A stretch of 46,496 nt of DNA, taken from a virus. How positions within the stretch are numbered: the stretch's first letter is position 1; every line of letters begins with the position of its first letter. The stretch lies in IMG/VR virus record IMGVR_UViG_3300044699_000101, positions 1 through 46,496 of that record; one strand, given 5' to 3'. Below the pieces are notes generated by a model. It made no database searches. It saw only the letters and a program-made list of their open reading frames with translations, and was not told the origin of the DNA. Below, in pieces: positions 275 through 46,496 of the stretch. A program made the translations under genes and the position numbers.

Positions 275-885
275 TTACTCAGTCTTCCGGCATAGGCAAG
301 ACGGCGGGTGATCGGTGCAACCGGCACCAAACTCGATCCTCGTCACGATCGGCGCATCAGGTTGTGCCGACTAGCTCTTGAGTGACTTTGTCGCCGTACT
401 GTTTCGGCAACAGCCTCGACAGCAACCACTTACGACTATCAACCTGCAGCCGCTGCTTCTGAACCAAAGCATTGTCCGCTTCGCCATTTAGAACCAGTGC
501 ACGGTGCACATCGCTGATTGCTTGATCACGACTTCAATCCCGCCAAGCCGTTCAAGTCCGCATAGCTCGTTCGCCGCGCGCGTAACCGTTAGCACGGCTT
601 ACGGTGTCGCGTCACTGCGATTTCTAACCACGGTTCCTCCTCTCAATGAGCCCTGCGAGACGCTCGCACTGTCTACTGCGCGGCGCGTGCACAGATGCAC
701 CTCGCGACACGCATATCCTTGCCGAGCCCCGTATCGCCCGGACACGCCACCTGTACGAGTATCTATTCCCGGCTTATTTCTCTTCCGAGAACTCGCACGT
801 GCCCACTGCCCGGCCGCGTACTGCGTTTTGTGGTGGCGGTCGTCGATCGTGCGTCAGCGATACGACGACGCGTTTCACGCTGCAA
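275..885 (-). pseudogene. Degraded copy of the terminase small subunit gene
   Basis: This is the counterpart of the intact gene at 43187-43714. Translation in shifting frames recovers the same fragments, such as VPVAPITRR near the C-terminus. Insertions break the frame in many places. It is most likely a sequencing-quality artefact of the left terminal copy and not a second gene. Confidence 0.85.
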
Positions 886-2431
886 GGTCAGCGTCCGCTG
901 CTAGCCCCCTCCCGTCCGCGCGCACGAGCGCGCACACGATTCCTTTAGGTAGCGCGATAATGGCATCTCGAGCTGTGGCGAGCTATCGCGCACACCTCCG
1001 TTTCACACCCGTCGCGCATCGAGCCTGTAGTCCACACTTCCGGGCAATCCCGGTGAATAAACCACATCCGCGCACTCACCGGATGCCTGGTGTCGCACCG
1101 CACCAGCAATCCCGGTGACTCGCAATGTGTTTCCCGACCGTGCAAACTCCGTCACCGATTGCGCGGAGCGCACTCTCGCTGGCGCCAGCGTGCGTAGCAC
1201 TGCGGCACTCTCGTGTCCCCCGCGACATAGCCCCCCTGACGCGCAGCGCGCGCAGCTCTCGTCCGCCCGGGCGAGCAGTATACCCGTACCCGACCGCGCG
1301 TGCCGCAAGCTGGGCGACGGCTGGGGCGGGGTTGGTGCATCCGCCAGATACGCCGGTGCCGGTGGCAAGCCTCGCCAGACCGTATTCCCGGCTTTTGCCC
1401 ATCTCCATGGCTTCCTACTAATCGGCTAGGAAGCCCGCTGAGTGGCCTGAGGACCTTTTCGGCTACCAGGGTGACGGCCGACCCCCGTTCCACCACCCCA
1501 CTGGCAGCCACAGGCATGCCGATTTCATGAGGCATCCTTGCTCGGCGGACGGGCGATCGGGCTTGAGGATGGGCTGATATGGGGATCCATCGAATCCGCC
1601 CGACCCGCCGCCGGCATGGTCGCAACATGCACTAATCCCTATCTGGTGTGATAACTCGGCCGCGTCAAGCCGAAATGTAGCGCCAGCACTGGCAATGTGG
1701 ACCATCAGACACGCCTATTAGCGGCGCCGGTGCCGCGGCCGCGACCGATCCAGTTTTGCCGCTGCGCCCCAAGGCGGACAGGCTTTCGTCCCGCCCGAGG
1801 ACATCCCAGGCAAGACTGCCCATACGGGCTGCCTGAGAGCCACCGTGCAGAGCGCATCGAGGGCGCGACCGCAGTTGATGAACGGTCGCGTACGCGGCCT
1901 GACTGCCGACTCGCGAAGCTGCCCGCCGCTGCGACACCCGCAGCATGTCGGCTGCCTGCAGGGTCGGCACGGCGGCTCTGCGGGCGATCTCACCAAACTG
2001 CAGCAGCCCGGCGGCGTGTTCCTGCGGGACCGAACTCGCGCCGGGCAGCAGGTTGTCCAACACGCTGCGGCAATCGCCAGGGTGGCCGATCTCGCACCAG
2101 TTGCTGTCGGCGACAACCGGGCTGCGACACGATGTTGCCATGCTGTCGGCGCGCTCCGTGTGGGGTTGAGGGTTCGCTGTCATTCCGCTCCACCCACTCG
2201 TATTGTTCGACCAAGGGCGAACCTTGTCTCGTAACCGCAACGATTTCTGCCCCTGGCCACAGCACCTTGTACTCGAACCACAAGCGCCTGCTGCCAGCCC
2301 CGCATATCGCATCGCCCTGCCGCCAACACCTCCCCTCGTCGTCGTCGCCGAGCAACGCCTCCCGTAACAGGTCGAGCGCTGCTCGACCAGCCGCACGTGC
2401 AAGCCCGGGTTGTGGCGACGCAAATGTTCCA
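886..2431 (-). other. Noisy copy of small hypothetical genes upstream of terS
   Basis: This region corresponds to 43715-45134 of the right copy. Fragments of the same proteins are seen: a Cys-Trp-Cys small protein ending in FIHRDC near 1050, the helical protein with SVLDNLL and PTLQAADMLR near 1900-2100, and the small protein ending WVEQYEWVE near 2200-2430. No frame stays open for a full gene because of insertion errors. The long open frames on the plus strand here are antisense shadows. Confidence 0.75.
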
Positions 2432-5304
2432 TACCGCGCCGCCGGCATTTTCGACCCGGGTGACTTGGTGACGCTGGTGACGCTAATCCGCATCTCCCTC
2501 GCACGAGGCGTATATGTATGGAAATAACCTGGAAGTGGCGCTCACCCAGCGTCACCCAACGTCACCCGTGCCCTCCGTCGTCGTCTATAGCCGCTGGGAG
2601 CCGCCTGGTCCCGACATTCTTGTGTAAGATCAAGAGCCTTTGCGCAATCTCTCCCGTTTGGAGCGTGCCCCCGCCGGAAATACCCGCTCGTCGAGGTCTT
2701 TCCGAATTGCGCTTCGCAATCGCCTCCTCATCATTTTCCGAGCACCAAATTTCGTAGCTGGACTACAAAAGGCCGACCGAGCAACTCACCCCCGCTGGAC
2801 ACGTGACAGTCTGTCTCTGATAAATGCACAGACACGTTATCCTGGCTCTCTTGATAAACTAAAGTTGCATCGATAACAGCGGCCGGAGGCTGCAATCCGC
2901 CCCCTTGCCATGCCTTGCAGCCCCGATCATCCACGCCAGGATGCCCGGGTACTCATTGAACGAGTTTGCTTTTCAAGTCAGGGTCCTTGACCTTTTGCCC
3001 GTCAACCGCCTTGTCGCCGTCGACAAAAGCTTACGGCAAACGCAGCAATAGAATGCGTCGCCAGATGGCATAATCCGACCTCTGATGCGCGGTTTGTGAT
3101 TGGTGGCGAGCCCACAATTTAAACCTGGGAGTGAACTCGAACCACTCGTTGTGGAGGAACTGGCGGTCATCCGATCGCCGCCCGGTAGCCTGTTTGACGA
3201 CCCTTCAGCCAGGTTCCTTTCGTGTTCCGTTTCCGACAACCGAAACGAATCTGGCACCGGGCGAGGCGGGCAACGTCATGGGGATACGAGACCCTTTTTC
3301 TTGTGAAATAAATGTTTCTGACGGGCACTGTTTCGCATAGTCGCCAAGCACCGCGGCAACCGTTTCGATCAATACGACTACCGTTGGACCGGAGCCGTGC
3401 AGGAATGAACACGACTTGTTCGGTGGTCAGTCCGGTGAGGGAGTAGCCAGGGCGCGTATGGACAAACGTCACTAGTTCCCTGTCATGTCGAATATGTCGA
3501 GGATAAATTGTTTACCCAGATCGGGCAGGTGGCAGCCGGAGGTCGTTAAACCCGTACCGGGCTAATTTTAGTCAGTAGATCCTCCTGAGTGTGTTTGTGC
3601 ATGTTGCGCTCCGTGTAGGTCGACTGTGTGCCGTTTAAACAGTTTAGGGCAGCCATGGGGTCACGGGTCGAAGATCGGTCGGCGGCAACCACGGGATGGC
3701 GGCTCGTGGCTTGTGACAACACATGCCGGTGGATGCGGTTGGCGAGTTGCCGGACTGGACGGCGCAAATTTAATGACAGCGGGCGCGCATCTTCGTCACG
3801 CGGCCGGGTGCGAGAGGGAGAGGCATGGTGCGAAAGCTTGGGCGCAGCGTTAGTGCGTGACACGTTGTTCCCGCGTGTTGCCAGTCAGCCGCCCGGCCGG
3901 GGTAGGCGTTTGTCGATCTCCGGGATTCGACGAGCGTAACGCCTGCGCTATCCCAGGACGTGCCAGGCCGAGGATGCCGACGACTTATTCGCAGTGCGCT
4001 CAGTGCCGATGGTTGAATGCGATATATCCGCATTGGCATTGCCCGAGACTCGAGTTGCAGGGGGGGAGCAGCCGCGCGAGTGATGGGCGCCGCTGGTCGT
4101 CGCCCGGTTGGCGTCGCGAGGGCGCCTGTCGGCGGCACGGGTTCCAGGGGCGGCGCCGGATCTTGTTGTTGCGGACCGCGTAATTGGCTCACCGGGGCCG
4201 GACTGCCGCGGTGGGCGGGCTTCTCCGCCACCGTGGCTTCTGTCGCACAGTCGGTGATCATTCCCGGCGCAGAATTGCCTGCCTCAGCGCTGAGCCAAGT
4301 TCCATCCCGCCTCGCCCGGCGCCAAGACCCAGCGCGCGCGGTGTGTTACGCGTCTTAGAGACTTGGGCGCTCCGATGTCGCGTCGTCGTCGACGCCCGGC
4401 TCGGCGCCAGCCGTGGCCTGAACACCTGCGAGCTGTGTCTCGGGTGGATCGCCGCTATCATCCCTGGCCCGCGGCTAATCCATTGCTTCCAGGCGTTGGC
4501 GCACCTCGAGCGTGCCTTAGTGGCGAACCGGCGGGCAAAATTCGGGTGTACGGGTTGTCTAGTGTGCCTCACGCGTGGACGGGCCGCTGCGGGAAGCTCG
4601 ACAACCGGCCTGTGCCAGTCGAGCCATCTCTTGCAGGTCGCGCCACTCGTAGCGTGCCCAGGACGCTGCCAGCACATGGCAGGAGACGAGGTTTGCCCGC
4701 CTTTGCTGTTGTGCGTCCCGGGCAGGCGCATAACGCGCGCCAGGTCGCACACCGCGAGCGGGGTCGCCTGCGACAAGGCCGGAGAGGGCTTCGTAGTGCC
4801 GGCCACCAGTTCGGCTTCCAGGGCTGTACGCGCCGGGGGCGCTCGATCGATACGTCCAGGTGTTCGGTGGACAGCCAGCGACCGTGGATGCCGTAGCCGC
4901 TGTCAATGATGATCGATGGTGGCAGGTTGCAATTTGCTGCATCGGGACGGCGCTGACCCGCCGCCTTATCGAGACGCGAGCTTGACGCAGTCGGTGTCCG
5001 GTCCACAGCGAGACCGCATTCTGCCAGATGCCTCGCGCCGGCCGGTGGCGCGGCCGGTGAGACGGGTTACCTCGCCGTAATAGACGGCGCTGGGCCTGGC
5101 CCGTCCCAGCGGCGTGCAGTGCAGTTCGATGTCGAGGGGATCGCGGGGTGAACAGCGAGGCGGTGCGGTCCGCTTCGCGATTTCCATTCGGGAACCGAGC
5201 CGCAGTTCAACGGCGTGCTCGCTTACCTCACCGTACAAGGCGTGCCAGGTAGGACGCTGGCCGGTGCTGTAATTGTTTGTCGCGCACAACTCAGCGCCCT
5301 CCAT
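2432..5304 (-). pseudogene. Primase-polymerase / SF3 (D5-like) helicase, full length but frame-broken
   Basis: Reading leftward, fragments in changing frames rebuild one phage primase-helicase. The start near 5304 gives MEGAEL...HALYGEVSEHAVELR. Then come PPSIIIDSGYGIH (about 4930-4880) and CDLARVMRLPGTHNSKGG (about 4755-4700), which are hallmark motifs of archaeo-eukaryotic primase (Prim-Pol) domains. Next is LLNCLNGT near 3640, then the SF3 helicase region with ETEHERNLAE and LATNHKPRIRG near 3260-3080. The last part is the winged-helix-like C-terminus rich in SVTSVT/GDAGDA. The family makes primers and unwinds DNA for phage or plasmid replication. Insertions break it throughout; the right copy at 45134-46496 repeats the helicase half more cleanly. 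It follows the hypothetical gene at 5336-6091 on the same strand. The family call is firm; exact codons are not recoverable. Confidence 0.85.
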
Positions 5305-22933: not shown

Positions 22934-23047
22934 TCACTTTCCTTTCCGAGTGGGTTTGGCCTTACCGCCCTTGGTGGGCCGCGGCGGCTTCGGCTTTGGC
23001 GGCTTGATACTCGGGCCGCCGAACGTGCCGTGCATGGCGTTATTCAT
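22934..23047 (-). CDS. Basic Pro/Lys-rich peptide, 37 aa
   Basis: ATG at 23047 overlaps the stop of the fibre-like gene (ATGA). The product is MNNAMHGTFGGPSIKPPKPK followed by a Lys/Arg/Gly tail. Its own 3-prime end carries the GGAAAGGAAAG ribosome site of the Ig-like gene. It is extremely basic, and could bind nucleic acid or act as a linker. The function is unknown. Confidence 0.5.
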   Translation of the reverse strand: MNNAMHGTFGGPSIKPPKPKPPRPTKGGKAKPTRKGK

Positions 23048-23613
23048 CGAGCTGCACCTTTGACTGCTTCCAAAGCCTCGACCCTGGCTGCCAGATCCTG
23101 CACCGCAGCAACCAGTTCTAACGGACTGCCGGTGACGATGAACGCCTGCGCCGTGACGGTGCTGGTGGCGACGATGGGACCGGTTACTTGGATGCCGCTA
23201 TTATTCAATACCACGGCCGGAACCGGCCCGCCGGGGCTGGAGGCGGTGCCGGCATTGAGGCTGCCGGCCGTGATGTTGCCGTCAGCCTGAATGTTTCCGG
23301 TGGAATGAATATAACCGGCGGTGACGGCGCCGCTGCTGGCCCAGATGTTATGACCAGAAGAGATGTCATTGCCGGCATTGATGTTGTTATTGACTATCAG
23401 GCTGCCGGTGACGGTGCCGCCGGAAAGCGGCAAAAACTGGCTTGGCAGCGCCGCAAATTGAGCGGTGACGCTGTCGTAGTTCCGCCGGATCGCCCCCATC
23501 ATGGCGCGAGCGGAGTTGTTTACCCCGCTCACCTGCATGTTCTCCGGCCAGCCATTTGGCGGCGCCGCAGTATTGCTCTCGTCTACCGGCGACCATGCGC
23601 TGATGTCTGCCAT
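23044..23613 (-). CDS. Tail fibre-like protein, 189 aa
   Basis: The N-terminus, MADISAWSPVDESNTAAPPNGWPENMQVSGVNNSARAMMGAIRRNY, is the conserved motif seen at the start of many podovirus and siphovirus fibre proteins. A beta-repeat region follows (FLPLSGGTVTGSLIVNNNI, then short G-N-I units), then a coiled-coil C-terminus, VAAVQDLAARVEALEAVKG, that would drive trimerisation. It is short for a fibre, so it may be a connector or short tail fibre. Neighbours on both sides are late structural genes. Confidence 0.75.
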   Translation of the reverse strand: MADISAWSPVDESNTAAPPNGWPENMQVSGVNNSARAMMGAIRRNYDSVTAQFAALPSQFLPLSGGTVTGSLIVNNNINAGNDISSGHNIWASSGAVTAGYIHSTGNIQADGNITAGSLNAGTASSPGGPVPAVVLNNSGIQVTGPIVATSTVTAQAFIVTGSPLELVAAVQDLAARVEALEAVKGAAR

Positions 23614-26057: not shown

Positions 26058-27633
26058 TCATCTGCGGGTCGCCTCTGGCCGCAACTGCACATCGATCCCG
26101 TCGAGGCTGGTAAAATTCTGCCCCGCCGGCATCTGAAAACGAAATCTGAGATACCGCCCGGTGCACCGCTGCGGGCATTCGCCGATCTGGTTGATCGCTA
26201 CTGCCGGTTCCCAGGTGACGGGGTCGGTCTGACGCTCGCGGTGCCCGATCGCAATCGTCGCCGCGCCGCCATCGTGTAACGGCCGGGTGTTCTGCACCCA
26301 GGCCCGCCTGCCCTCCACTGGCTGGATCTCGCCGGTATCCAGGGTCGGTGCCATCGGCGGGCCGCCGGCAATATTCAATCGGTGGTCAGGCAGGAAAAAG
26401 CTGACCCGTGCCGCCGCGTTGCCAGACCAGAACGGATCGTCAAACGACGGCGTGATGGTGTCGAGGTCGCCAAAACTGTCGATGTGATCGAGGTCGTAAA
26501 CAACGCCGTAAGCCCCGGTGGTCAGCCACTCGATGTAGTGGTCGACGCGCTCCAATTCCGAGATTGTGGCGCGACCAAGCTCCCAGTTGTAGACCAATAA
26601 CTTGGTAAGCATCCCCTCGGAACCGGGGGTCGGGAACCCCCACATCACGATGCGGGTGCGCGGGTCGCGGATACCTTGAACATTGGCGATGTAGGCATCG
26701 TCGACCTGGTTATAAAACTCACGGTCGAATTTCTGGGCGCCGATCGGAAAACTGGTGTTGCCATCGAATGCCGCAAAGCCGTGCTCGGTCAGATAGTAAA
26801 CCACCGGCCGGATGGCCCCGGTGTTTGTCCTTAGCGAAGCTCTGCACAATCGAGAGCGGTGCCGTGCTGCCGGCCGCGCCCTGCGCCACCTTGAAATTGA
26901 AGATCAGCGGCAGGCTGGTATAGGAAGCGGTCCAGATGCCACGCTCACAGAAAATTACGACATCGCTGCCGGGAGCAAAACCTGAAACAAGGCCGGTAAT
27001 TTGCCCGAGATCTGTCTGTTGCAGATCCTGAAAGTCGCTCTGGGTCTGAAGGGCCGGCGTCGAACCCGGCGTGGGCCACGAAGCAGGCGAGTTAATGCTG
27101 CTCCACCACACCCTTTGTGGCTGCGACCCATCCACCGGATCGATCGTCCAGCCGAACATCAGAAAGTCTTTGACCACCGCGACGTATCTGGCGACTGGCG
27201 CATCGGCCGACAAATCGGCGAATTGCGGCGTCGCGCCAACCGGCAGAAGGATCGTCTGCGGCGGGTCAGCACCGTTGGTGGCGATGACGCGTGTGCCATA
27301 AGAAGTCATCGACCAGTGCCCGCCGCTGACCGGGCTTGGCGTATTGTAGGGGCCGGTGGCGCCGGTAACGTCGACAAAGTCAGTGGCGCTAGGCGGCAGC
27401 ATGTAGAGCTTCACGTGATCGCCGGCAAACAGGTAGACCGTATTATCCGCCGCCTTGATCGTGTAGGAACCCTGGCAGCGTTCGCCCAAGGTGTTGGTAC
27501 TGTGCGGAATAGCAGTCGGCATCGGGCCATAACTCGACGCCGTTATCGGCACGCAGTTCTTGATCAGCGGGCTGCCGGCAGTCCTGAAATCCGATAGGTC
27601 GGGCAGCCACTCGGCCCAGGGCGCGATGGTCAT
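26058..27633 (-). CDS. Tail stabilisation/hub-type virion protein, frameshifted
   Basis: ATG at 27633 overlaps the stop of the adaptor gene (ATGA) and gives MTIAPWAEWLPDLSDF. Motifs include SPLIKNCVPITASSYGPMP, RVIATNGADPPQ, FLMFGWTIDPVDGSQPQRVWWS, TQSDFQDLQQTDLGQITGLVSG and IFCERGIWTASY. These match the large conserved beta-rich protein encoded after the adaptor in podoviruses (P22 gp10-like position). The frame moves near 26825 (VQSFAKD to TGAIRPVVYYLTEHGF) and continues through FDREFYNQVDD and YIEWLTTG to a C-terminal beta domain ending DGIDVQLRPEATRR. Combined length is about 525 residues. It is predicted to seal the head-tail channel or form the tail hub. Confidence 0.75.
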
Positions 27634-28568
27634 TTCCAATAAATCCAGACGTCATCGACAAAGCGAAACTGCATCCCGGCGCCTGGGCCGTAGCCATTGG
27701 TCGGTTCAGCCAGAGTTGGCGAGCCGCTAGCATATTGGATCTGCAAAGACGTCACGGGGTTTTCGAATGAAATATCGACCACCATGCCATGCACCGGATC
27801 AGGCGGCAGGCGGATCGTCAGAGCCGCGTGCAGCGGGCCGGCAATATAAAGCCCCGGTTCCCGGGCAAACATCGCCACAGTGTCACCGCTGACCGGGCTT
27901 ACCTCGCGGAAAATCGTACTGACTTGGATTGTTGCGACAGTAACGCCGCCAATCACCCCGGCCGTGCCGGCGCCAGTATCGACCCGGATCTGTAGCGGCC
28001 CGGCCCAGCGCAGTTTGCGATCGGCCGCTTCGAGCCCGGCAAAAGCCGCCTCGCGCCGCGCCAGCCAGCCCTGCGCCCGCTGATCCTCGCCGATATAAAC
28101 CTCGGCCTCGACCAGCGCGCCAAACAGATAAGCGTCTGGCGCGGTATCAAGCAGCCAATTCGTCGGGGCTGTGTCGGATAGCGGCGGCACCCCGGACTGA
28201 TAGACCAAATTTACAATCTGCTCGCCGTTTGTGCCCGGCCCCAGCCACAGATCGCGACCGACAATTGAGTAGCTGTTGGTCTGGCCACCATTGCCAGCGA
28301 GTTGGGTTGGCGGCAGATAGTCCAAGGTAAGATCGCCAATCGCCACTTGGCGCACCTGCACGCAATCGGTGGGCAGGCTAATTGCGTTCGTGCCGGTAGC
28401 CGAGAGAGAGACAATCTTTTCCGCCCCGGCCGATTTCAGTCGCCGGTTGGCCTCGGCCTCAAACAGCCGGATCATGTCGGGCACCGCGGGCTGCACCAGC
28501 GGATCGGCCGGTCGCGCCAGCCACGACAAGATACTGGCCTGGAGTGCAGAATAACTATCGAGAGCCAT
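27630..28568 (-). CDS. Head-tail adaptor/connector protein, 312 aa
   Basis: The N-terminal 190 residues follow the phage adaptor pattern: LQASILSWLARPADPLVQPAVPDMIRLFEAEANRRLKS, then LPTDCVQVRQVAIG, then AYLFGALVEAEVYIGEDQRAQGWLARREAAF. This is typical of gp4-like adaptor proteins that bind under the portal. A C-terminal beta domain (TVAMFAREPGLYIAGPLHAALTIRLP, ending FRFVDDVWIYWK) is of the kind appended to several tail proteins in this phage group. It is coupled by an ATGA overlap to the following stabilisation-type gene, consistent with head completion. Confidence 0.8.
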   Translation of the reverse strand: MALDSYSALQASILSWLARPADPLVQPAVPDMIRLFEAEANRRLKSAGAEKIVSLSATGTNAISLPTDCVQVRQVAIGDLTLDYLPPTQLAGNGGQTNSYSIVGRDLWLGPGTNGEQIVNLVYQSGVPPLSDTAPTNWLLDTAPDAYLFGALVEAEVYIGEDQRAQGWLARREAAFAGLEAADRKLRWAGPLQIRVDTGAGTAGVIGGVTVATIQVSTIFREVSPVSGDTVAMFAREPGLYIAGPLHAALTIRLPPDPVHGMVVDISFENPVTSLQIQYASGSPTLAEPTNGYGPGAGMQFRFVDDVWIYWK

Positions 28569-28979: not shown

Positions 28980-29861
28980 TTACGTTACAGAGCGCCAGTG
29001 CCTGCCGCTGCGAATGCTGCTGATGTATGTCGGGGCCAGCCCGAACATTTCAGCCAGGACCGCGCGCTTCGCCGAGCTGGCACGAATGAAGCGCACGTCG
29101 TCTTCAGTCAACATCGGGCGCGGCACGCGAATAGCGCGCGGTTCAACGGTCTTCGTAGACTTCGACGTTGCTTTCTTCTTCGGCAACTGAACGCCGCCTA
29201 ACAAAGCCCAATGCTGGCCGGATCTAAGAGTGCTGACATACGTCGGAGCTATCCCAAACATCTCTGCGAGAAGATCCCGCTTAGCCGAGCTGCTGCGGAT
29301 AAAACGCACATCGTCTTCTGTCAATTTCGCGCGACCGTTACGCTCACCCCGACGATCTTTCTCGCGGGTATTATTCGCCTGCTGAGCCCTGGTCGCCCAA
29401 CGCACGTTGCCAGGCTCATAATCGCCGTCATTGTTGATCCGGTCCAGCGTTAGCCCAGGCTCCGGCGGATCGCCAACATCGGCGTAGAACGCCTCGAAAC
29501 TGTTACGCCAGCGATCACAAACCTTGATGCCGCGACCGCCGTAGTTAGGCCACGCGGCCTCGTTTGGATTAGCGCACCGCTTTTTCATCCCCTTCCAGCA
29601 TTGGTAAATCTTAGTTCGTGCGCCAGCGTGCCCGTGTCTCCGCTTAGCCGCACTTACCATCGCGCCAGTCGCACACCCGCAGCTCTTCTTGTTCCCTTGC
29701 TGAAGCACGTTGCCGATAGCAATGACATCAGTGGCCCCGCAATCGCAGACACACCGCCACAGCGCCCGGCCTTTGGCGAACCCAGCCGGCTCTACGACTA
29801 GCAGCATGCCAAACCGTTCCCCCACCAATTGCCGTATCGGCTTGCCCGGACGATTAGCCAT
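28980..29861 (-). CDS. HNH endonuclease with zinc-ribbon and duplicated HTH domains
   Basis: I start at 29861 because GGGAGG lies just upstream; the frame is open to 29924. Domains in order are: a zinc ribbon ([20 protein letters not shown], then NKKSCGC); a middle region with [13 protein letters not shown] and [15 protein letters not shown]; an HNH-like active site ([21 protein letters not shown]); and two near-identical C-terminal HTH units of about 39 residues, each beginning [10 protein letters not shown] and ending RSGxHW, joined by a basic linker. This is the layout of a free-standing phage homing endonuclease. It sits between the major capsid gene and the 28573 gene, a common insertion spot. 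The tandem HTH copy is unusual. Confidence 0.88.
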
Positions 29862-29942
29862 AAATGCCTCCCTCAATGGCACTTGCCATGGTGCCATCGA
29901 AGGAGTAGAGTTGTCTAGTAACACAGCACTGTCAGGTGCAGA

Positions 29943-37258: not shown

Positions 37259-39624
37259 TTAAACAATACCAAGTTGCGGGTACTTGATCGCCTTCGGCCG
37301 GCCGGCCGGAGTCTCGTACGCCACTGCCATTAATCCAAAAGCGTCAGACCCATGACTACTGAAATCGTGCTCGGGGCCTAACCCCACCTCGCGCCAATCA
37401 TCGCTGCGCTTCTCGTGATACCAGCCGAGTGCGTCCCTGCCGGCTTCCGTCGTCTCGGCGTTAAACCAGACGGCCGGAAATAGCCGGCGAGCCGCCTCGA
37501 TGCGGGCCTTCGCGGCGCCGCGACCCTGGTTGGGGATCACCTCGACGTTGAACCCGGCCGCCCTAAAAGCACTCTCGAACGACACGTCATAAACCCGGTC
37601 ATGGGTCGCGCCGTCATGGGGAGGAAAATCTGCGCCTTGCCCCAGCCGCGCTCGCGCAGCCAGTCGACATGCACGCCAAGGCTCTGTCCGACCGCCTCGT
37701 AATAGTCGAGCACCCGCACCTCGCGACCGACAAACTGGCAAACCCACATCGCGAACGCATCGCTGCGGGCGCCCGTGCCGCCCAAATCGCAATACGCCCG
37801 CACCGCCATCAGCGGGTCACGTGTGACCCGGCCAATGCGGCCCTCTTGGCTCGCATCCGACAGAAATTTGGCGTAGTAGGCGCCGGCATGGGCGATCGCG
37901 TACTCGCCCTCCCAGATATGCGGATACTGCTCCGGCCGCTTCGCCTCATCCTCGCGACGGATCTGGTCGAGGGTCGAGGGGAACCAGGCGTTATCACGCC
38001 AGTTCAGTTCGACAATCTTGCTGTTTTCCGGCGGGTTGACCCGGAAACGCTGGTTGGTCGCGCTGGCCCGCCGCTCGGGGTTCCAGGTCACCCAGATTTC
38101 CGCATTCTCCTCGCGGACGGTCGGGATCGCCTTCTGCCACGCCATCTCGCTGACCGGCTCGGCCTCGTCGACCCACAGAAGGCGTATCCGAGCGGTCGAT
38201 TTGACGCTCTCGATGTTTCTTCTAAGGCCGACAAAGGAGAAATCGATCCGCCCGTCGCGGGTGCGGATAAACTTCTCGCCGATCTCGTAATTGTCTCTGA
38301 GCCACGGCTCGGTCTCGATCGCCTGCTTGACTTCCGCCATGCTGCTTTCGTCGAGGCTGTTCTGAAACTCGCGGCCGCAGACGATAACCCCGCTTTCCTT
38401 CGCCAGGGCGCACCGCAGCCCGTGCACGGCGGCCATCTTGGCGAAGGATCGACTGTTATGCGTTACCGTTCCGTCAGCCAGCATAAAAAGGTGGTCGCCG
38501 TCGAGTTCAAAACCAAAATATGCACCGACGCCGATTTCCTCTATGTCAACCCGGGTGCGGCGCCAATCCTTGTTTTTAACGACGCGTGCGGCATCACGTT
38601 TGCGCGCAACCCTTAAAGGCAATCTGTCGATGTCTCCCCCGATCTGGCATTTCCAGGCGGCGCAAATCTTGCCGTTAAGCGGCACCGGGGTATAACGCTT
38701 GCTGGCCTTGAAGCCTAAACCGTGCGCGAGCCGGATAATGTCGTCCAGCATCGCCTCACGCGACTGCGCAATCGCGATACATCCTGTCGATACATGACCA
38801 TCCGTATCAACCAGGCCGGCCAGCAGCGCCAATCGCTGTTCCGTCGACGCGCCGAAATACTCTTCCGGTATATGCTTGTTCCTAAACACCCCGGCGACGC
38901 GCAATTGCTGCACGAAACTCCCAGCCCGCGAATACTCGCTGCCAATATAAAACCGAGATGCGCTCCTACCATTGCCCATCTCGGAAACAACCCAGTTCTC
39001 CTCCTCGGCATACGCATAAATAAATGAGATTATCTCTGGATCCGGATTGGTGATTTCCGACGCCTTCGCGGTGCCGTCTCCCAACCACAGCCCGAGGAAA
39101 TAAGGATCAACCGTAAGCGCCTTATGCATCCCAACAATCGGCCGGCGAAAGCCAAAATGCTGGGTCTTGAACCGCTCTGGTTTCTTGGCATAGTCAGCCG
39201 CGGTAATCAGCGAATAGCCTAGCCCTGTATCGTATCCGGCGTACCTGCCATTGACCCTTTGTGGGTTCCCAGCCAGGCTGATAGAGCCGAAATCCTCAGC
39301 GGCGTGTCGCGATCTCTCCAGCACCAGAATGTGGTCGCCGTTCACCACATAGCTCATGCCGGTCTTTTGCGTCACCCGGTAAAGCGGAGCAATCCCCTGA
39401 GCTAACCCACACACCCTGCGCGGCCGGCCATCCGGACCAAGAAGGCAATCCCCTTCTCGCACATCCTCGACCGCAACAAGCGACGCATCCGCCCGCAGAA
39501 CCTTGGTTCCCCGACCAAAACATTTGGCACTGCCGCGTCCGCCATACGCGCCGCGGTACAAGGCTTCGCCGGAGAACACCTCAACCAGCTTCTCCGGCAG
39601 CTCGATCTGGCCCGACTTCGCCAA
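37259..39624 (-). CDS. Terminase large subunit (PBSX type) interrupted by an intein; one frameshift
   Basis: The start MAKSGQIELPEKLVEVFSGEALYRGAYGGRGSAK leads to the Walker A site, which is interrupted after K34 by a 356-residue intein; SRSFAKMAAVHGLR resumes at 391. Walker B is LLWVDEAEP (D486, E487 in the unspliced numbering). Other family motifs are GVIVCGREFQNSLDESSM, EIWVTWNPERRASATNQRF, HIWEGEY and the nuclease region RAYCDLGGTGARSDAFAM. The frame shifts at a C4 near 37620 (AQIFLP to HDGATHDRVYDVSFESAF) and ends KAIKYPQLGIV. After splicing the enzyme is about 430 residues, normal for this family. It pumps DNA into the procapsid and cuts concatemers. Confidence 0.93.
38455..39522 (-). 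other. Intein with LAGLIDADG homing endonuclease in terL
   Basis: The 356-residue insert begins with Cys (C35, CFGRGTKVLRADASLVAVEDVREGDCLLGPDG, the block A splicing motif). It has a GDH block B-like site at 96-98 and two DOD motifs: FLGLWLGDG near 176-184 and LLAGLVDTDGHV near 267-278. It ends YFGFELDGDHLFMLADGTVTHN with the penultimate His and terminal Asn (389-390). Ser391 is the +1 nucleophile. All residues needed for canonical cis-splicing are present. The frame stays open through the insert, so it is protein-level, not an intron. The splice site cuts the P-loop between Lys and Ser (GGRGSAK/S). Confidence 0.95.
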
Positions 39625-39646: not shown

Positions 39647-39724
39647 TCAGGGCTTGGTATCGCCACCCGGCAAAGGCCGCGGCTTGCCGCCGCCAACAGC
39701 GACGCCATATGACTCATCCCGCAT
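39647..39724 (-). CDS. Small Gly/Pro-rich ORF, 25 aa
   Basis: ATG at 39724 lies inside the end of the beta-helix gene. The product starts MRDESYGVAVGGGKPRPLPG and ends GDTKP. The GGGKPRPLP motif recurs at the C-terminus of the Pro-rich protein at 15607-16042 (GGGKPRPLPPG), which supports it being translated. It lies between the secreted trio and terL. The function is unknown. Confidence 0.4.
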   Translation of the reverse strand: MRDESYGVAVGGGKPRPLPGGDTKP

Positions 39725-41594
39725 CCGTCGGGTAACAACCGCCGCCAACCAAAGCCGTGTTATTATTGAAAAACACATCGGTTAACGGCCCGCCGGCCGC
39801 GCCGGCCGGCGGGTACAACGAAAATGCCGACCCGGCAATCAACATCGCCGGCTCGACTCCACCCGTCAAACCGTTGAAATTCTGCCAATATGAAGCCTTT
39901 GCCGGAAAGTTTGCCCCGGCTATCCAGGAAACCGTCACCGGCAGCGGCAAACCGCCAACAACCGCCGCCCCGGTCGAGGTGCCTTTGCTCAATAACTGAA
40001 AGTTAAAATATGCACACGCCATCTGCCCGGTACGCCAGTACCGCCCGGCGTTGCTATTGTATGTCAGCCCCGCCTTGGCGCCGCCAAAAGTCAGATCCGG
40101 GGTCCACGCCACCTGCCCCGACTTGGTGTTATCCGTGTCAACAACCTGCGCCCCGGTGCCCTGATGAAAATACCGGGCGCCTGTGCCAACATCGAAATTA
40201 TTCCACAGGTATTTGCTGTTTGTACTGTTATCCCAAACCGTATTGATGTGCGTCGACCCGCGCAGGCTTTCACCCATCACCGTCGTATTGTTGGCTTGAG
40301 TGACATGATAGGCGCCGAACGTATCGGCCGGCGTTACGATGTTGGTATAAGTATTGCCCAGCAACAGCGTATTGGTCGGCGCGCCGCCGTTGTCAACACC
40401 CGCTGCCCCGTTGATATCGACCACCGTGCTACCGGCCCGACTACAGGTGTTGCCGATAAACCGGTTGCCGTCGCTTACCCCCGACACCCGCAGACATATA
40501 AAATTGTTGACGCCGTCGCCCTCGATCGCGTTGCCGATCACACTGACCCGGTCGGCGCCGTTGCCCGCCACCCCCAAACCGTTGAGCCAGATCGCCGCCC
40601 CGCCGCTTGGCCCGACCATCTGAAAGCGATTGCCGATAATCGTCCCGTCGCCGGCCTTCTTCTGCAGTGCGACACCGGCTGTGTCACTGCCGGTAACCAT
40701 CGCGCCGTAGAGGTAACCGACGCAGAAATTATTCTGGACCGACATCGCTTTCGGTCCCTGCCAGTGATCCCAGCAGACATTGTCGATGGCGCCGATCCCA
40801 AGCGTGGCGCCGGCCACAGTGGTGCTTGCCGCCGCCGACAGCGTCAGCGACGTCGGGCCGACCGCCGTCACATGCGTCAGGCGAGCCAGCCCCGGGCCAT
40901 CCACCCGATCGCCAACCGCAATCCCCTCGGTCGACAGAATGCCGTCTATCGTCGTCGTGCCGTGAGTATTACCGACGATCGCCAGACCCGCCTTGCTGCG
41001 AGTGACCGCCGTGTCGGTGGTGCCCAGCATCGCAGTACAATCGCCGCCGTTCATACAGGTGATATCGTCGATCCTGACCCGGTCGACCTCGCGCATCATC
41101 ACGATGTGCCAGTTCGGCAAACCGCTGGCGCCGCCGGAAACCGTCTCAGCCCCCGCCCGAAAACTACAACCCCCGATCTCGATGTCCTGGTCCCGCTGCG
41201 CGTTCGGCACATGACTGGTGATATTCGCCGCCGTGGTGTGCTCGTTGATCGCCACCAGCCACAGCCCGAGAGCCGTCGCCGGCCCACCCTCGCCGGCAAA
41301 ATCGCTGGCGTTAAAGGTGATCCATGTCCCCGGCTCGCACTGTAGTTTGGTATGACTGCTTAGCCGCAAGGTATTGGTAATGTGATAAGTGCCGGCCTGC
41401 ACAGCCACCACACCGCCGCCATTGGCCTTCGCCGCCGCTAATGCAGCCGCAATACTGCCGCCCGGCTCAACCGGAAAGGCCTGCCCGAGATTGCGGCTGG
41501 CCTCCGGCAGTTTCGCATTGCTGCCGTCCTGGTACATATCCGCCGCGGCCGGCAGAGCCAGCAGCAACAGCGGCAGCGACAGCCACCACCTCAT
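39714..41594 (-). CDS. Secreted right-handed beta-helix protein (tailspike or pectate-lyase-like), 626 aa
   Basis: The ATG at 41594 overlaps the stop of the upstream gene (TAATG). It starts MRWWLSLPLLLLALPAAAD, a clear Sec signal peptide with an AAA-D cleavage site. After a linker, GGSIAAALAAAKANGGGVVAVQAGTYHITNTLRL opens a parallel beta-helix of the pectate lyase/GH28 class, with repeats such as VSVIGNAIEGDGVNNFICLRVSGVSDGNRFIGNTCSRAG. The C-terminal part (ACAYFNFQLLSKGTSTG) looks like a receptor or trimer domain. Beta-helix proteins in phages are usually polysaccharide-degrading tailspikes, but these do not normally carry signal peptides. No catalytic residues can be assigned by eye. Confidence 0.8.
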   Translation of the reverse strand: MRWWLSLPLLLLALPAAADMYQDGSNAKLPEASRNLGQAFPVEPGGSIAAALAAAKANGGGVVAVQAGTYHITNTLRLSSHTKLQCEPGTWITFNASDFAGEGGPATALGLWLVAINEHTTAANITSHVPNAQRDQDIEIGGCSFRAGAETVSGGASGLPNWHIVMMREVDRVRIDDITCMNGGDCTAMLGTTDTAVTRSKAGLAIVGNTHGTTTIDGILSTEGIAVGDRVDGPGLARLTHVTAVGPTSLTLSAAASTTVAGATLGIGAIDNVCWDHWQGPKAMSVQNNFCVGYLYGAMVTGSDTAGVALQKKAGDGTIIGNRFQMVGPSGGAAIWLNGLGVAGNGADRVSVIGNAIEGDGVNNFICLRVSGVSDGNRFIGNTCSRAGSTVVDINGAAGVDNGGAPTNTLLLGNTYTNIVTPADTFGAYHVTQANNTTVMGESLRGSTHINTVWDNSTNSKYLWNNFDVGTGARYFHQGTGAQVVDTDNTKSGQVAWTPDLTFGGAKAGLTYNSNAGRYWRTGQMACAYFNFQLLSKGTSTGAAVVGGLPLPVTVSWIAGANFPAKASYWQNFNGLTGGVEPAMLIAGSAFSLYPPAGAAGGPLTDVFFNNNTALVGGGCYPTDAG

Positions 41595-42484
41595 TAAAAA
41601 CCCCAGTAATCGCGTTGGTTCTGGGTCAGCGCCGCGCGCTCGGCCGGCGCCAGAACATAGTTGTCCCAGACCAACGCCTCCACCTGGCTGCACACCGTGC
41701 CGGTATTGCCGCGCGCAACCAGCACACTCCCCGCCGCCGCGCTGCCCGTCACGTTCGTCCCCACCGTCTCCGTCGCGTCGATCCGACCGAGGCTCGCCGC
41801 CCCGTCCACGACCCCGATGCCGGCGTGCCACGCATTGTCGGCAGCGCTCAATGCAAAGTTGTTCGTCGTCTGATCCGACACGAGCCACTGGTTCGCCACC
41901 GTGTGGCTGCCGATCAAAGAAATGTGCTTCGAGGACAATGTGCAGTTGCCCGTCCCCGAGGTGCGGTTGCCGACCGCCGACAGCGTCGTCCTGGCCGCCG
42001 TCCACGCCACGCTCGCGCTGATCAAATACCCGTTGGGGTCGGCAACCGGCCGCAGGCACGGCTTGCCGGTGACGCAGCTCGCAATGTATTGCGGCTGATA
42101 TCCCGGCGTCGCCTGCGTGACGTTGCGCGCCTGGCCGCTCTGATCGTACCAGGTATCAACAAAACACGTCGTCGCATTGCAGAAACTCGCCGCCGCCGCC
42201 ACGTCCAATGGCGCCCCGGTGAACCCGGTAAACCCAAGAAAGTTGATGTCCTGCGTGGCGTTGTCGCTGGCCCGTCGCAATTTGATGCCCGGGCCGGCGT
42301 AGGTGCTCTTCAGCTTGCGCAGGCTGTATGCCGCCGCCGAGCTCGCAAACGCCCCGCCGCCATCCAACGGCGCAATCGCCCCCTGCAGCCGGTGCCCGGC
42401 ATGCAGCACGTTTGGCCCGGCATGCATCCGCGCCACCGCCGGCGATGCCGCCAGCAGCAGCGCGGCGGCCACCGCCGCCCTCAC
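41594..42484 (-). CDS. Secreted arabinofuranosidase B-like protein, 296 aa
   Basis: The GTG start at 42484 overlaps the preceding TGA (GTGA). The N-terminus MRAAVAAALLLAASPAVARM is a signal peptide with an AVA-R site. Residues about 49-300 resemble the catalytic/concanavalin-like domain of alpha-L-arabinofuranosidase B (GH54-type): AAYSLRKLKSTYAGPGIKLRRASDNATQDINF, then CFVDTWYDQSGQARNVTQATPGYQPQY, then KHISLIGSHTVANQW and EALVWDNYVLAPAERAAL. The TWYDQSG motif is strongly diagnostic of this fold. In phages it may bind or cut host polysaccharide as a secreted factor or tail component. The overlap pattern shows translation with both neighbours. Confidence 0.8.
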   Translation of the reverse strand: MRAAVAAALLLAASPAVARMHAGPNVLHAGHRLQGAIAPLDGGGAFASSAAAYSLRKLKSTYAGPGIKLRRASDNATQDINFLGFTGFTGAPLDVAAAASFCNATTCFVDTWYDQSGQARNVTQATPGYQPQYIASCVTGKPCLRPVADPNGYLISASVAWTAARTTLSAVGNRTSGTGNCTLSSKHISLIGSHTVANQWLVSDQTTNNFALSAADNAWHAGIGVVDGAASLGRIDATETVGTNVTGSAAAGSVLVARGNTGTVCSQVEALVWDNYVLAPAERAALTQNQRDYWGF

Positions 42485-42855
42485 AACCCGTCGCCCGGCG
42501 TTATATATAACGTCGCCGCCGTCCCCGCCGTGATGCCCGCCACGTATTGCTGGGCACAGCCCAGCACCTCCACCGTGCCAGGCGCGATCGGCAGGCTCGT
42601 CGTCAGCGACGCAACACTGGCAACATCACCACAAGCCACAAAGACCGCCACCGTGCCGCTGTTATAAACACGCATCGCCTTCGAATTCGGACCCGGCTGC
42701 ACCTGCACCCGCGAGGTCGTCCCGGTCGCCGCCAGGCTCACCGTGTTGCCGCCAGCGAGGAAAGGCACCTGGCCGCGCGCGTGCATATATATAGACGAGA
42801 AGACTAAAACGAGCGCGGCGACGGTTAGCGCCCGCAAAGGTTGTGGCGATAGCAT
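42481..42855 (-). CDS. Small secreted beta-rich protein, 124 aa
   Basis: I chose the ATG at 42855 because GAGG lies six bases upstream; an earlier ATG at 42897 lacks a ribosome site. The product begins MLSPQPLRALTVAALVLVFS, a signal peptide or anchor. A beta domain follows: VSLAATGTTSRVQVQPGPNSKAMRVYNSGTVAVFVACGDV, then LPIAPGTVEVLGCAQQYVAGITAGTAATLYITPGDG. Such compact VYNSGTxxVFVxxG proteins occur, as I recall, next to tail proteins of alphaproteobacterial phages. It is the first of three coupled genes with signal peptides and ends with a GTGA overlap. The family has no known role. Confidence 0.7.
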   Translation of the reverse strand: MLSPQPLRALTVAALVLVFSSIYMHARGQVPFLAGGNTVSLAATGTTSRVQVQPGPNSKAMRVYNSGTVAVFVACGDVASVASLTTSLPIAPGTVEVLGCAQQYVAGITAGTAATLYITPGDGL

Positions 42856-43186
42856 GCCGGGCCTCAAAAAAAATATTCGGGAGGGTGCGGCTGACATGGG
42901 GGCGGTGTGGGGCCGTCAGCCAGCCGGATGGAACCATCGTCTTCGGGGGTGGCCCCGGGGGCCTAGGTCCAGGTGGGCCGCGCTGGCTGCTGGTTGTCCG
43001 GGAGGTAGGCTCCTAACCAGACCAGACGGCGACAGCGCGACCCACATGAGCGAGAGACGAGATGTCTCGTTAGGATCTAGACCCGCGCCTCGCTGCGTCT
43101 CTTAACCATCGTTTCGACCCTGATGAGACGCAGATTGTGTCTCACCGTCTCGTATGTCTGGGGTATACCCAAGCGAGACGAAGCGG
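42856..43186. other. Non-coding or unresolved stretch between terS and the secreted trio
   Basis: A short frame (MVKRRSEAR... then LDPNETxRLSLMWVALS) is open in the left copy but broken here, so a small gene cannot be excluded. The stretch also holds a T8 tract (42866-42873 on the complementary strand), the GAGACG cluster and the equivalent of the contig start. No terminator or RNA gene is recognised. Confidence 0.45.
43054..43179. promoter_or_regulatory. Cluster of GAGACG motifs, possible terminase binding/packaging site
   Basis: Seven GAGAC/GTCTC pentamers lie in 126 bases (starting at 43054, 43064, 43097, 43125, 43139, 43147 and 43175); five extend to GAGACG/CGTCTC. Two pairs form hairpins: ACGAGA/TCTCGT (43057-43070) and TGAGAC/GTCTCA (43124-43144). 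About 0.25 pentamers would be expected by chance. The cluster directly follows terS, where many phages keep their pac or cos recognition site. The contig start falls within about 150 bases of it. The same motifs are present in the left copy near 130-270. Confidence 0.55.
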
Positions 43187-43714
43187 TTACTCAGTTTCCG
43201 GCATAGGCAGACGGCGGGTGATCGGTGCAACCGGCACCAACTCGATCCTCGTCACGATCGGCGCATCAGGGTTGCCGACTAGCTCTTGAGTGACTTTGTC
43301 GCCGTACTGTTTCGGCAACAGCCTCGACAGCAACCACTTACGACTATCAACCTGCAGCCGCTGCTTCTGAACCAAAGCATTGTCCGCTTCGCCATTAGAA
43401 CCAGTGCACGGTGCATCGCTGATTGCTATCACTTCATCCGCCAAGCGTTCAAGTCCGATAGCTTTCGCGCGCGCGTACCTTTCCGCAAACGGTGTCTCGC
43501 CATTTCTAACCGGTTCTCTCTCAATAGCCCACGATCGCACTGTACTAGCGGGTGGCGAGATGCACCTCGCGACAGATATCTTCGAGCCGTTCGCCGGCAG
43601 CCAGCTGTCGAGTATTTCCCCGGCTATTTCTTCCGAGAACGTCCACTGCCGGCCGCGACTGCGTTTGGGTGGCGGGTCGATCGCGTCAGCGATACGACGA
43701 ATTTCACGCTGCAA
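43187..43714 (-). CDS. Terminase small subunit
   Basis: A 175-residue protein starting at a TTG (43714), MQREIRRIADAIDPPPKRSRGRQW. Then come FSEEIAGEILDSWLPANGSKISVAR (DNA-binding HTH region), STVRSWAIEREPVRNGETPFAERYARAKAIGLERLADEVIAISDAP and the diagnostic C-terminus NALVQKQRLQVDSRKWLLSRLLPKQYGDKVTQELVGN. The QKxRLxVDxRKWLxSxLxPKxYGDK motif is characteristic of phage small terminases. It binds the packaging site and hands DNA to TerL. It is intact here but broken in the left copy. It overlaps a 40-residue ORF upstream and is followed by the GAGACG cluster. Confidence 0.92.
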   Translation of the reverse strand: MQREIRRIADAIDPPPKRSRGRQWTFSEEIAGEILDSWLPANGSKISVARCISPPASTVRSWAIEREPVRNGETPFAERYARAKAIGLERLADEVIAISDAPCTGSNGEADNALVQKQRLQVDSRKWLLSRLLPKQYGDKVTQELVGNPDAPIVTRIELVPVAPITRRLPMPETE

Positions 43715-43826
43715 GGTCAGCGTCCCGCTCCCCCTCCCTCGCGCGCACGAGCGCGCACAATTCCTTTAGTAGCGCGATAATGGCATCGAGCTTGGCGAGC
43801 ATGGCCTCCGTTTCACCGTCGCGCAT
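43704..43826 (-). CDS. Small helical ORF overlapping terS, 40 aa
   Basis: It reads MRDGETEAMLAKLDAIIALL, then KELCALVRAREGERDADLAA. A short amphipathic helix dominates. The stop lies inside the first codons of terS (11-base overlap), so translation is probably coupled. Tiny EAMLxKLDxIIxLL proteins are common just before terS genes. The function is unknown. Confidence 0.55.
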   Translation of the reverse strand: MRDGETEAMLAKLDAIIALLKELCALVRAREGERDADLAA

Positions 43827-43836
43827 CAGCCTGTGT

Positions 43837-44020
43837 CACCTTCCGCAATCCCGGTGAATAAACACATCCGGCACTACCGGATCTGGTGTCGGACCGCACC
43901 AGCAATCCGGTGAAGCAATGTGTTCCCGACCGTGCAAATCGTCACCTTGCGCGGAGCTCTCGTGCGCCAGCGCGAGCACTGCGGCACTAGTGTCCGCGAC
44001 ATAGCCCTCGCAGCGCGCAG
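43837..44020 (-). CDS. Small Cys-Trp-Cys phage protein (partial, start unclear)
   Basis: The C-terminus reads DDLHGREHIASPDCWCGPTPDPVV, then PDVFIHRDCGR and a stop at 43837. The pattern D-x-x-x-H...CWCGP...V-x-IHR is a conserved short phage protein of unknown function, possibly metal-binding. Upstream codons (VADTSAAVLALAHESS) lose the frame in this low-quality region, so the start cannot be placed. Confidence 0.55.
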
Positions 44021-44160
44021 CTCTCGTCCGCCCGGGCGAGCAGTAAACCGAACCCGACCCCGCCGCAAGCTGGGCACGGCTGGGCGGTTTGGCATCCGCC
44101 AGATACCCGGTGCCGTGGCAAGCCTCGCAGATCGTATTCCCCGCTTTTGCCCATAATGGC

Positions 44161-44887
44161 TCATAAATCGGCTAGGAAGCCCGCTGAGTGGCCTGAGACC
44201 TTTTCGGCTACCAGGGTAGCGGCCGACCCCGTTCCACCCCACTGGCAGCCACAGCATGCGATTTCTGAGGCATCCTTGCTCGGCGGACGGGTCGGGCTTG
44301 GAGGATGGGCTGATATGGGGATCATCGAATCCGCCCGACCCGCCGCCGGCATGGTCGCAACATGCACTAATCCCCTATCTGGTGATAACCGGGGCCGCGT
44401 CAAGCCGAAATGTAGCGCCAGCACTGGCAATGTGGCCATCAGCACGCCTTTAGCGGCGCCGGTGCCGCGGCCGACCGATCCAGTTTTGCCGCTGCGCCCA
44501 GGCGGACAGGCTTTCGTCCCGCCCGAGGACATCCCAGGCAAGACTGCCCATCGGGCTGCCGAGACCACCGAGCGCATCGAGGGCGCGACCGAGTTGATGA
44601 CGGCGCGTTCGCTGCCACTGCCATCGCGAAGCTGCCCGCCGCTGCGGACCCGCAGCAGGTCGGCTGCCTGCAGGGTCGGCACGGCGGCTCTGCGGGCGAT
44701 CTCACCAAACTGCAGCCCGGCGGCGTGTTCCTGCGGACCGATCTCGCGCCGGGCCAGCAGGTTGTCCAACACGCTGCGGCAATGCCAGGGGTGGCCGATC
44801 GCACCAGTGCTGTCGGCGACCAACCGGGCTGCGCACGATGTTGCCATGCTGTCGGCGCTCCGGTGTGGGGTTGAGGGTTCGCGTCAT
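44161..44887 (-). CDS. Helical early protein, DUF6456-like pattern, frame-broken
   Basis: ATG at 44887 overlaps the preceding TGA (MTRTLNPTPER). After frame changes the recognisable part is CRSVLDNLLARREIGPQEHAAGLQFGEIARRAAVPTLQAADLLRV, then MGSLAWDVLGRDESLSAW and VLMATLPVLALHFGLTRPR. The pattern of a short helix, an A-G-L-x-F-x-E-x-x-R-x-A segment, S-x-x-W-x-VLG-x-x-x-SL-x-W and ATLxVLAxHFG is shared with DUF6456-like proteins of alphaproteobacterial phages; the match is from memory and uncertain. The function is unknown, probably DNA-binding. The 3-prime boundary is not resolved; another small gene may lie in 44020-44400. Confidence 0.5.
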
Positions 44888-45134
44888 TCCGCTTCCACCC
44901 ACTCGTATTGTTCGACCCAAGGGCGAACCTTGTCTCGTACCGCAACGATTTCTGCCCCTGGCCACAGCTCTTGTACTCGAACCACAAGCGCCTGCTGCCA
45001 GCCCCGCATCATCGCATCGCCCTGCCGCCACACCTCCTCGTCGTCGTCGCCGAGCAACGCCTCCCGTAACAGGTCGGAGCTGCTCGACCAGCCGCACGTA
45101 GCAAGCCCGGGTTGTGGCGACGCAAAATGTTCAT
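44884..45134 (-). CDS. Small hypothetical protein, about 82 aa, minor frame errors
   Basis: ATG at 45134 overlaps the stop of the primase-helicase (TAATG). The readable frame gives SDLLREALLGDDDEEVWRQGDAMMRGWQQALVVRVQELWPGAEIVAVRDKVRPWVEQYEWVEAE. The N-terminal 25 residues are in a different frame because of indels. It is acidic and helical, and not recognised. It ends in an ATGA overlap with the following gene. Confidence 0.55.
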
Positions 45135-46496
45135 TACCGGCGCGCCGGCATTTTCGACCGGGTGACGTTGGTGACGCTGGTGACGCTAATCCGCATCTCC
45201 TCGCACGAGGCGTATATGTATGGAAATAACCTGGAAGTGGCGTCACCAGCGTCACCAACGTCACCCGTGCCCTCCGTCGTCGCTAAGCCGCTGGGCCGCC
45301 TGGTCCCGACATTCTTGTGTAAGATCAAGGCCTTTGCGCAATCTCTCCCGTTTGGAGCGTGCCCCCGCCGGAAATCCCCGCTCGTCGAGGTTCTTTCCGA
45401 ATTGCGCTTCGCAATCGCCTCCTCATCATTTTCCGAGCACCAAATTTCGTAGCTGGTATACAAAAGGCCGACCGAGCAACTCACCCCCCTGGACACGTGA
45501 CAGTTGTCTCTGATAAATGCAGACACGTTTATCCTGGCTCTCTTGATAACCTAAAGTTGCATCGATAACAGCGGCCGGAGGCTGCAATCCGCCCTCCTGC
45601 CATGCCTTGCAGCCCCGTATCATCCACGCCAGGATGCCCGGTACTCATTGACGAGTTTGCTTTTCAAGTCAGGGTCCTTGACCTTTTGCCCGTCAACCGC
45701 CTTGTCGCCGTCGACAAAAGTTACGGCAAACGGCAGCAATAGAATGCTGTCGCCAGATGGCATAATCCGACCCTCTGATGCGCGGTTTGTGATTGGTGGC
45801 GAGCCACAATTTAAACCTGGGAGTGAACTCGAACCACTCGTTGTGGAGGAACCTGGCGGTCATCCGATCGCCGCCGGTAGCCTGTTTGACGAGCCCTTCA
45901 GCCAGGTTCCTTTCGTGTTCCGTTTCGACAACCGAAACGAATCTGGCACCGGCGAGGCGGGCAACGTCACTGGGGATACGAGACCCTTTTTCTGTGAAAT
46001 AAATGTTTCTGACGGGCACTGTTTCGCATAGTCGCCAAGCACCGCGGCAACCGTTTCGATCAATACCGACTTACCGTTGGAACCGGAGCCGTGCAGGATG
46101 AACACGACTTGTTCGGTGGTCAGTCCGGTGAGGGAGTAGCCAAGGGCGCGTTGGACAACGTCACTAGTTCCCTGTCACTGTCGAATATGTCGAGGATAAA
46201 TTGTTCCCATATCGGGCAAGGTGGCAGCCGGATCGTAAAACCGTAACCGCAAATTTTAGTCAGTAGACCTCCTGAGTGTGTTTGGTGCATGTTGCCGCTC
46301 CGTTGGTCACTGGTGCCGTTTAAACAGTTTAGCAGCATTGGGGTCACGGTCGAGATCGTCGGCGGCAACCACGAGATGCGGCTCGGCTTGTGACAACATG
46401 CCGGTGATGCGGTTGGCGTTGCCGGACTGGACGGCAAATTTAATGACAGCGGCGCGCATCTTCGTCGCGGCCGGCGAGAGGGAGAGCATGTCGAAA
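45134..46496 (-). CDS. Primase-helicase, C-terminal half (partial at the contig end, frame-broken)
   Basis: This is the right-copy counterpart of the helicase half of the gene at 2432-5304. Readable parts are LAAATKMRAAVIKFA-like helices, LNCLNGT, CPIWEQFILDIFDSDREL, the Walker A loop FILHGSGSNGKSVLIETVAAVLGDYAKQ (near 46105-46020), ETEHERNLAEGLVKQATGGDRMTARFLHNEWFEFTPRFKLWLATNHKPRIRGSDYAIW (SF3 Walker B and motif C region), ILAWMIRGCKAWQEGGLQPP and a C-terminal winged-helix part with GTGDVGDAGDAT and ISVTSVTNVT. This is the D5/P4-type SF3 helicase C-terminus. It is cut by the window end; the rest continues at about 3836. Indels near 46330, 46110, 45960, 45720 and 45500 break the frame. Confidence 0.85.

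Follow-up and report, generated by a model that had tools for sequence, protein, structure and literature searches.

Three coupled genes with conserved signal peptides among the structural genes of tailed phages: a candidate exported receptor-binding or depolymerase module

Introduction

Tailed-phage virions are taken to be completed in the reducing cytoplasm, and to our knowledge the known tailspikes are made without signal peptides. In a viral contig from IMG/VR (virus record IMGVR_UViG_3300044699_000101; 46,496 bases, GC 62%; the whole stretch is called the window here), three adjacent genes between terS and terL each appear to encode an export signal, and the third resembles a spike. What are exported proteins doing inside a run of structural genes? 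The original prediction offered two answers: the proteins are secreted before lysis and act on surface polysaccharide, or they belong to the virion and reach it by an unusual route of assembly.

Results

A coupled gene triplet within the structural gene run

On the minus strand of the window the structural genes follow each other in the order terS, SB, ABF, third protein, TerL, portal, scaffold and major head protein. Downstream of terS (43187..43714; PF20901), the module comprises SB, a small beta protein of 124 aa with two mature cysteines (42481..42855), ABF, an arabinofuranosidase-B-like domain protein of 296 aa with a GTG start and six mature cysteines (41594..42484), and a spike-type third protein of 626 aa with ten mature cysteines (39714..41594). 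The SB stop overlaps the ABF start in GTGA, and the ABF stop overlaps the start of the third gene in TAATG. These coordinates and junctions confirm the predicted translational coupling of the three genes. TerL (37537..39624) contains an intein and a frame shift near 37790, which may be a sequencing error.

The TerL intein is of the Hint/LAGLIDADG type (window 37259-39624); it is also present in the relative L002 and absent from most others. An HNH endonuclease (phrog_374 and others; window 28980-29924) is encoded directly after the major head protein gene, and two overlapping ORFs at 26058-27639 match successive halves of phrog_3287, likely owing to another frameshift. Positions 1-3835 and 42910-46496 are copies of each other with 90.3% identity and 249 gap openings over 3.87 kb. 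From its sequence, the genome looks terminally redundant or circular with about 42.7-42.9 kb, and the left end looks like an uncorrected noisy read. A terS-like fragment at 357-533 is explained by this duplication of the contig ends.

Similar portal and head proteins are present in PaP3-type Pseudomonas podoviruses, Pelagibacter phage HTVC106P and Bradyrhizobium phage ppBeUSDA76-2. A prophage was rejected as the source is a viral contig and not part of a bacterial genome. A host search in GTDB genome contigs found no ABF relatives, and the two matches to the third-protein motif described below were chance hits in unrelated frames. A pilus-protein gene in the relative G010, also annotated in a Bradyrhizobium phage, only hints at an alphaproteobacterial host. 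In the module-bearing contig L118 (5908-6360), a signal peptide precedes a protein with a Pilus-formation N-terminal domain (PF13629), and a gene of like name is annotated in ppBeUSDA76-2.

All three proteins carry conserved signal peptides

Every start codon in all six frames of the window was scored with a simple n-region, h-region and AxA rule. The three module proteins ranked 1, 2 and 3, and among the 44 called genes they were the only ones with a score above 5, in agreement with the Sec-type signal peptides of the original prediction. Each displayed the n-region, the hydrophobic h-region and the AxA-type cleavage site of Sec substrates. On the minus strand, the signal peptides span residues 1-28 of SB (42772..42855; cleavage between HARG and QVPF, in relatives between ARA and QVPF), residues 1-18 of ABF (42431..42484; PAVA and RMHA) and residues 1-18 of the third protein (41541..41594; PAAA and DMYQ). 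Since the score is home-made and not SignalP, independent support was sought.

Relatives were collected by using SB, ABF and the third protein as queries and by a pattern scan for the third-protein motif. Complete relatives keep signal peptides on all three proteins, while the leader letters diverge. Sequence conservation begins at the cleavage site, with Q-x-x-F..GG.TVTL in SB, RMHAGPN, RMHAPYRGHRI or KAGPN in ABF and DMYQD in the third protein. Among the distinct viral matches to the third-protein pattern, the signal peptide ends exactly at the conserved motif in all except L061, where the motif lies in a different context.

Given the simplicity of the prediction method, the hydrophobic N-termini might instead be membrane- or virion-buried segments or artefacts of start choice, on proteins that fold in the cytoplasm. 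This is very improbable, because a short charged start, a hydrophobic core and small residues in front of a conserved mature start recur in dozens of relatives despite their divergent leader letters. The cysteine content of the proteins argues in the same direction.

Mature cysteines occur in even numbers

Proteins folding in an oxidising compartment are expected to have their cysteines in pairs. The mature cysteine count, ranging from 4 to 14, was even in 43 of 44 third proteins. As proteins within a cluster share ancestry, the fairer figure is that 15 of the 16 unrelated clusters of third-protein bodies were even throughout, the exception being L069 with five cysteines. Control proteins from the same contigs (89 in all, 68 of them containing cysteine) had an odd count in 34 of the 68. 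All 30 complete ABF proteins had an even count, and all 36 exported forms of SB had exactly two mature cysteines. The number was kept even where positions changed: SB still has two cysteines in L022 and L041, where the second of them has shifted along the chain, and L015 has lost two ABF cysteines together.

Such pairing was not seen in relatives lacking a signal peptide. The signal-less SB relatives L051, L054 and L055 are devoid of the pair at the SB positions, and L052 has three cysteines elsewhere. Signal-less ABF domains in four cultured phages have no or one cysteine and lack the FC..TTC pair, which is retained in the secreted fungal AbfB. Taken together, the conserved signal peptides, the cysteine parity and the absence of the pairs from signal-less relatives make a predicted Sec export of all three proteins well supported, and cleavage of the signal peptides and formation of disulfides would be expected to follow.

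A constant N-terminal tag precedes unrelated spike-type bodies

The only part common to all third proteins is a mature N-terminal tag, DMYQDGSNAKLPEASRNLG in the window (41484..41540, minus strand). Its consensus, DMYQD(G/A)SNAKLPxARxNLG, directly follows the cleavage site and is nearly invariant in 39 proteins. Behind this tag, the bodies fall into the 16 clusters and are of the tailspike, tail fibre, EPS depolymerase, pectate-lyase-like or pre-neck appendage type. Pect-lyase_RHGA_epim was matched by 13 of the 39 members and the tail spike family phrog_2234 by 9, the others matching tail fibres or EPS depolymerases. The third protein thus combines a constant N-terminus with a variable body, and across the 39 members this body is beta-helical or depolymerase-like. 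For the window protein alone the assignment is weak (tailspike PHROG match at 9e-6; AlphaFold2 pLDDT 37.7 from three sequences). The predicted length of 626 residues was correct, and the predicted beta-helix depends on this weak match and on the relatives. The usual place of synthesis and folding of tailspikes is the cytoplasm; for the proteins described here, the signal peptides and the even cysteine counts indicate export instead.

EPS depolymerase or pectate-lyase families are among the matches of several third proteins. Together with the export signals on all three proteins, this would also suit a module that acts free of the virion, its soluble depolymerases or lectins degrading or masking extracellular polysaccharide round the dying cell and thereby aiding progeny spread or blocking superinfection. 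Such free action is the main rival of virion attachment and a serious one, although we judge it to be the less likely of the two, one reason being that a free enzyme needs no N-terminal tag common to unrelated bodies.

SB and ABF families are tail-associated elsewhere

SB was modelled confidently as an all-beta protein of eight strands (AlphaFold2 pLDDT 94.8). Foldseek found no PDB structure matching it at E below 0.001, and a fold search revealed resemblance to many small uncharacterised phage proteins. The fold search also listed a protein of Pseudomonas phage tf, although the SB sequence profile detected nothing in this phage. Signal-less SB relatives in two Manatee Spring phages reside in tail or fibre gene neighbourhoods, in one case directly preceding a gene for a chaperone of endosialidase.

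The arabinofuranosidase label of ABF goes back to a match to PF09206 over about 81 residues (E 1.3e-14). The ABF profile covers no more of AbfB than residues 15-89, and the remainder of the protein is not recognisable. As the match ends at residue 89, short of a whole catalytic domain with its catalytic acid residues, identity as a GH54 arabinofuranosidase B was rejected and enzyme activity is unsupported; of the original label, the domain was upheld and the enzyme was not. Elsewhere, signal-less ABF domains are found in virion or minor tail proteins. The tail or virion association of both families is a further argument against free action.

The module is conserved as a unit at three structural-gene positions

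Module genes were detected in about 50 IMG/VR viral contigs with the order SB-ABF-third protein preserved; the module is known from environmental contigs and from no cultured phage. It is located between terS and terL in, for example, L002, L012-L018, L026, L031, L041 and L046, between terL and portal in L019, L032, L039 and L042, and beside tail-type genes in L003, L024 and L067. The last three contigs are without recognisable relatives of the window portal and head proteins, and in G001/L024 the terminase, portal and head proteins come from other families. The position between the terminase genes had originally been considered odd for morons. A stray insertion is contradicted by this conservation at three lineage-specific structural-gene positions. 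A moron or lysogenic conversion gene was likewise rejected, since about 50 contigs with coupled junctions inside structural gene runs do not fit sporadic insertion. That the module travels whole between phages whose virion genes differ speaks for free action.

Further proteins with export signals are encoded in the operon of relatives, namely a second tagged protein, a protein of about 390 aa, a coiled-coil type protein of about 76 aa (with a CGxxC pair at its end in two of three seen) and WbsX-like proteins. An unbroken run of seven genes with export signals lies between terS and terL in G006. The WbsX-like proteins (L109:8078-9253 and L107:8078-9298; PF14307 below the curated cut-off) are encoded directly after tagged spike genes and have Tat-type leaders (ITRRA...LIRPRP). 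Their presence in the same operon fits a secreted EPS-acting set, which favours free action and counts against virion attachment.

Signal-peptide proteins were also noted in four module-bearing contigs (L111:1741-2514, L106:15383-16114, L115:1-635 and L118:12212-12970). Ends resembling those of PEP-CTERM exosortase substrates were present in L111 (PF07589 confirmed) and in the two of these proteins with a complete C-terminus in the sequences covered. Exosortase substrates encoded by phage would be unusual.

A C-terminal domain on virion proteins tracks the module

In the window, a connector-type protein without signal peptide (28568..27630, minus strand; phrog_2941) terminates in a domain of about 95 aa ending in WIYWK (27630..27917, minus strand). 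The same domain occupies the extreme C-terminus of phrog_2941 proteins, phrog_1084 proteins, tail-fibre type proteins and others, and in L003, L024 and L067 the gene of the tail-fibre type carrier runs into the beginning of the SB reading frame. Sixteen of the 18 module contigs of at least 22 kb have the domain, against none of six relatives that lack the exported module; the two module contigs lacking it, G015 and G016, are possibly incomplete. A DNA pattern search followed by profile confirmation, in which the long-contig matches L132 and L143 were unconfirmed and dropped, yielded 13 contigs of at least 15 kb, 12 of which encode at least one module protein. Both searches began from module-bearing contigs, so the association is inflated by shared ancestry.

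Speculatively, this domain may be the socket of the module on the virion, and its co-occurrence with the module counts against free action. Among 50,697 phage records, its only occurrences were at the ends of tail-fibre-type proteins from Klebsiella jumbo phages, and for this reason it may instead be a glycan-binding tip. Also at odds with free action, the sole conventional fibre-like gene noticed in the window is short (189 aa; 23613..23044).

Discussion

Of the two answers originally proposed, export as such is strongly supported by the signal peptides and cysteine parity, and the tailspike or depolymerase nature holds across the relatives. As to the destination of the proteins, we lean towards virion parts that are assembled by an unusual route over free polysaccharide-acting proteins, because unrelated bodies share one tag and SB and ABF relatives lacking a signal peptide are associated with tails. 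The sequence data suggest that the compartment in which tailed phages are held to be assembled is not where all of this virus is made.

The reading we put forward, with about even confidence, is a receptor-binding or depolymerase module that leaves the cytoplasm by Sec, is oxidised in the periplasm and becomes part of virions at lysis. Sec would send SB, ABF and the third protein to the periplasm, where the signal peptides would be removed and the paired cysteines converted into disulfides. The N-terminal tag of the third protein probably docks the unrelated bodies to a complex of ABF and SB. Lysis would mix periplasm and cytoplasm, allowing the finished complexes to join the virions and to complete the receptor-binding apparatus. 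The socket for these complexes might, speculatively, be the C-terminal domain on the different virion proteins of module-bearing phages. We know of no mechanism that delivers periplasmic proteins to cytoplasmic heads before lysis, which counts against virion attachment. In the open-access literature, no precedent was found for exported or signal-peptide virion proteins of tailed phages or gene transfer agents, which is weak evidence of absence.

More tentatively, and with clearly less than even confidence, we propose that a widespread group of tailed phages uses such periplasm-oxidised spikes, attached at lysis to a mobile socket domain on whichever exposed virion protein the lineage provides, as a plug-and-socket host-range system. 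If true, this would be a two-compartment assembly route for tailed-phage virions, with unusually stable receptor-binding proteins travelling as one cassette.

The mosaic adhesive trimer (MAT) fibres of Bdellovibrio are an analogy for a fibre with an export signal. They are phage-fibre-like proteins with a conserved beta region immediately after the signal peptide (PMC10769870), and they demonstrate that a signal peptide is possible on a fibre-like protein. The third proteins share the phage-fibre-like character and a conserved region directly behind the signal peptide. As MAT proteins are surface displayed (PMC10769870), the module proteins might similarly serve as adhesins or decoys, exported to be shown on the surface of the infected cell or on released membrane. 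Such display is improbable: no surface-anchoring signal was seen in SB, ABF or the third protein, and from their position in the structural gene run they would be expressed late, only shortly before lysis. Unlike the module, MAT fibres are bacterial, chromosomally encoded predation adhesins, and the portion of the source covered here reports no SB or ABF partner (PMC10769870).

Signal-peptide endolysins are late phage proteins that use the host Sec pathway (PMC8951688), and in this respect the module is similar. They are peptidoglycan hydrolases, whereas Pfam and PHROG searches revealed no peptidoglycan hydrolase domain and no lysozyme or peptidase match in the module, and a signal-peptide endolysin was rejected as its identity. 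With GH54 alpha-L-arabinofuranosidase B (PF09206), ABF has in common the N-terminal portion of the fold together with the FC..TTC pair of cysteines, but not the enzyme beyond residue 89. Close in architecture are the tailspikes and depolymerases of P22-like and PaP3-like podoviruses, which share with the third proteins a short constant N-terminus, a swappable beta-helix or depolymerase body and matches to tailspike and fibre PHROGs. In contrast to these tailspikes, the module protein has its constant part immediately behind a Sec cleavage site, and its cysteines are paired.
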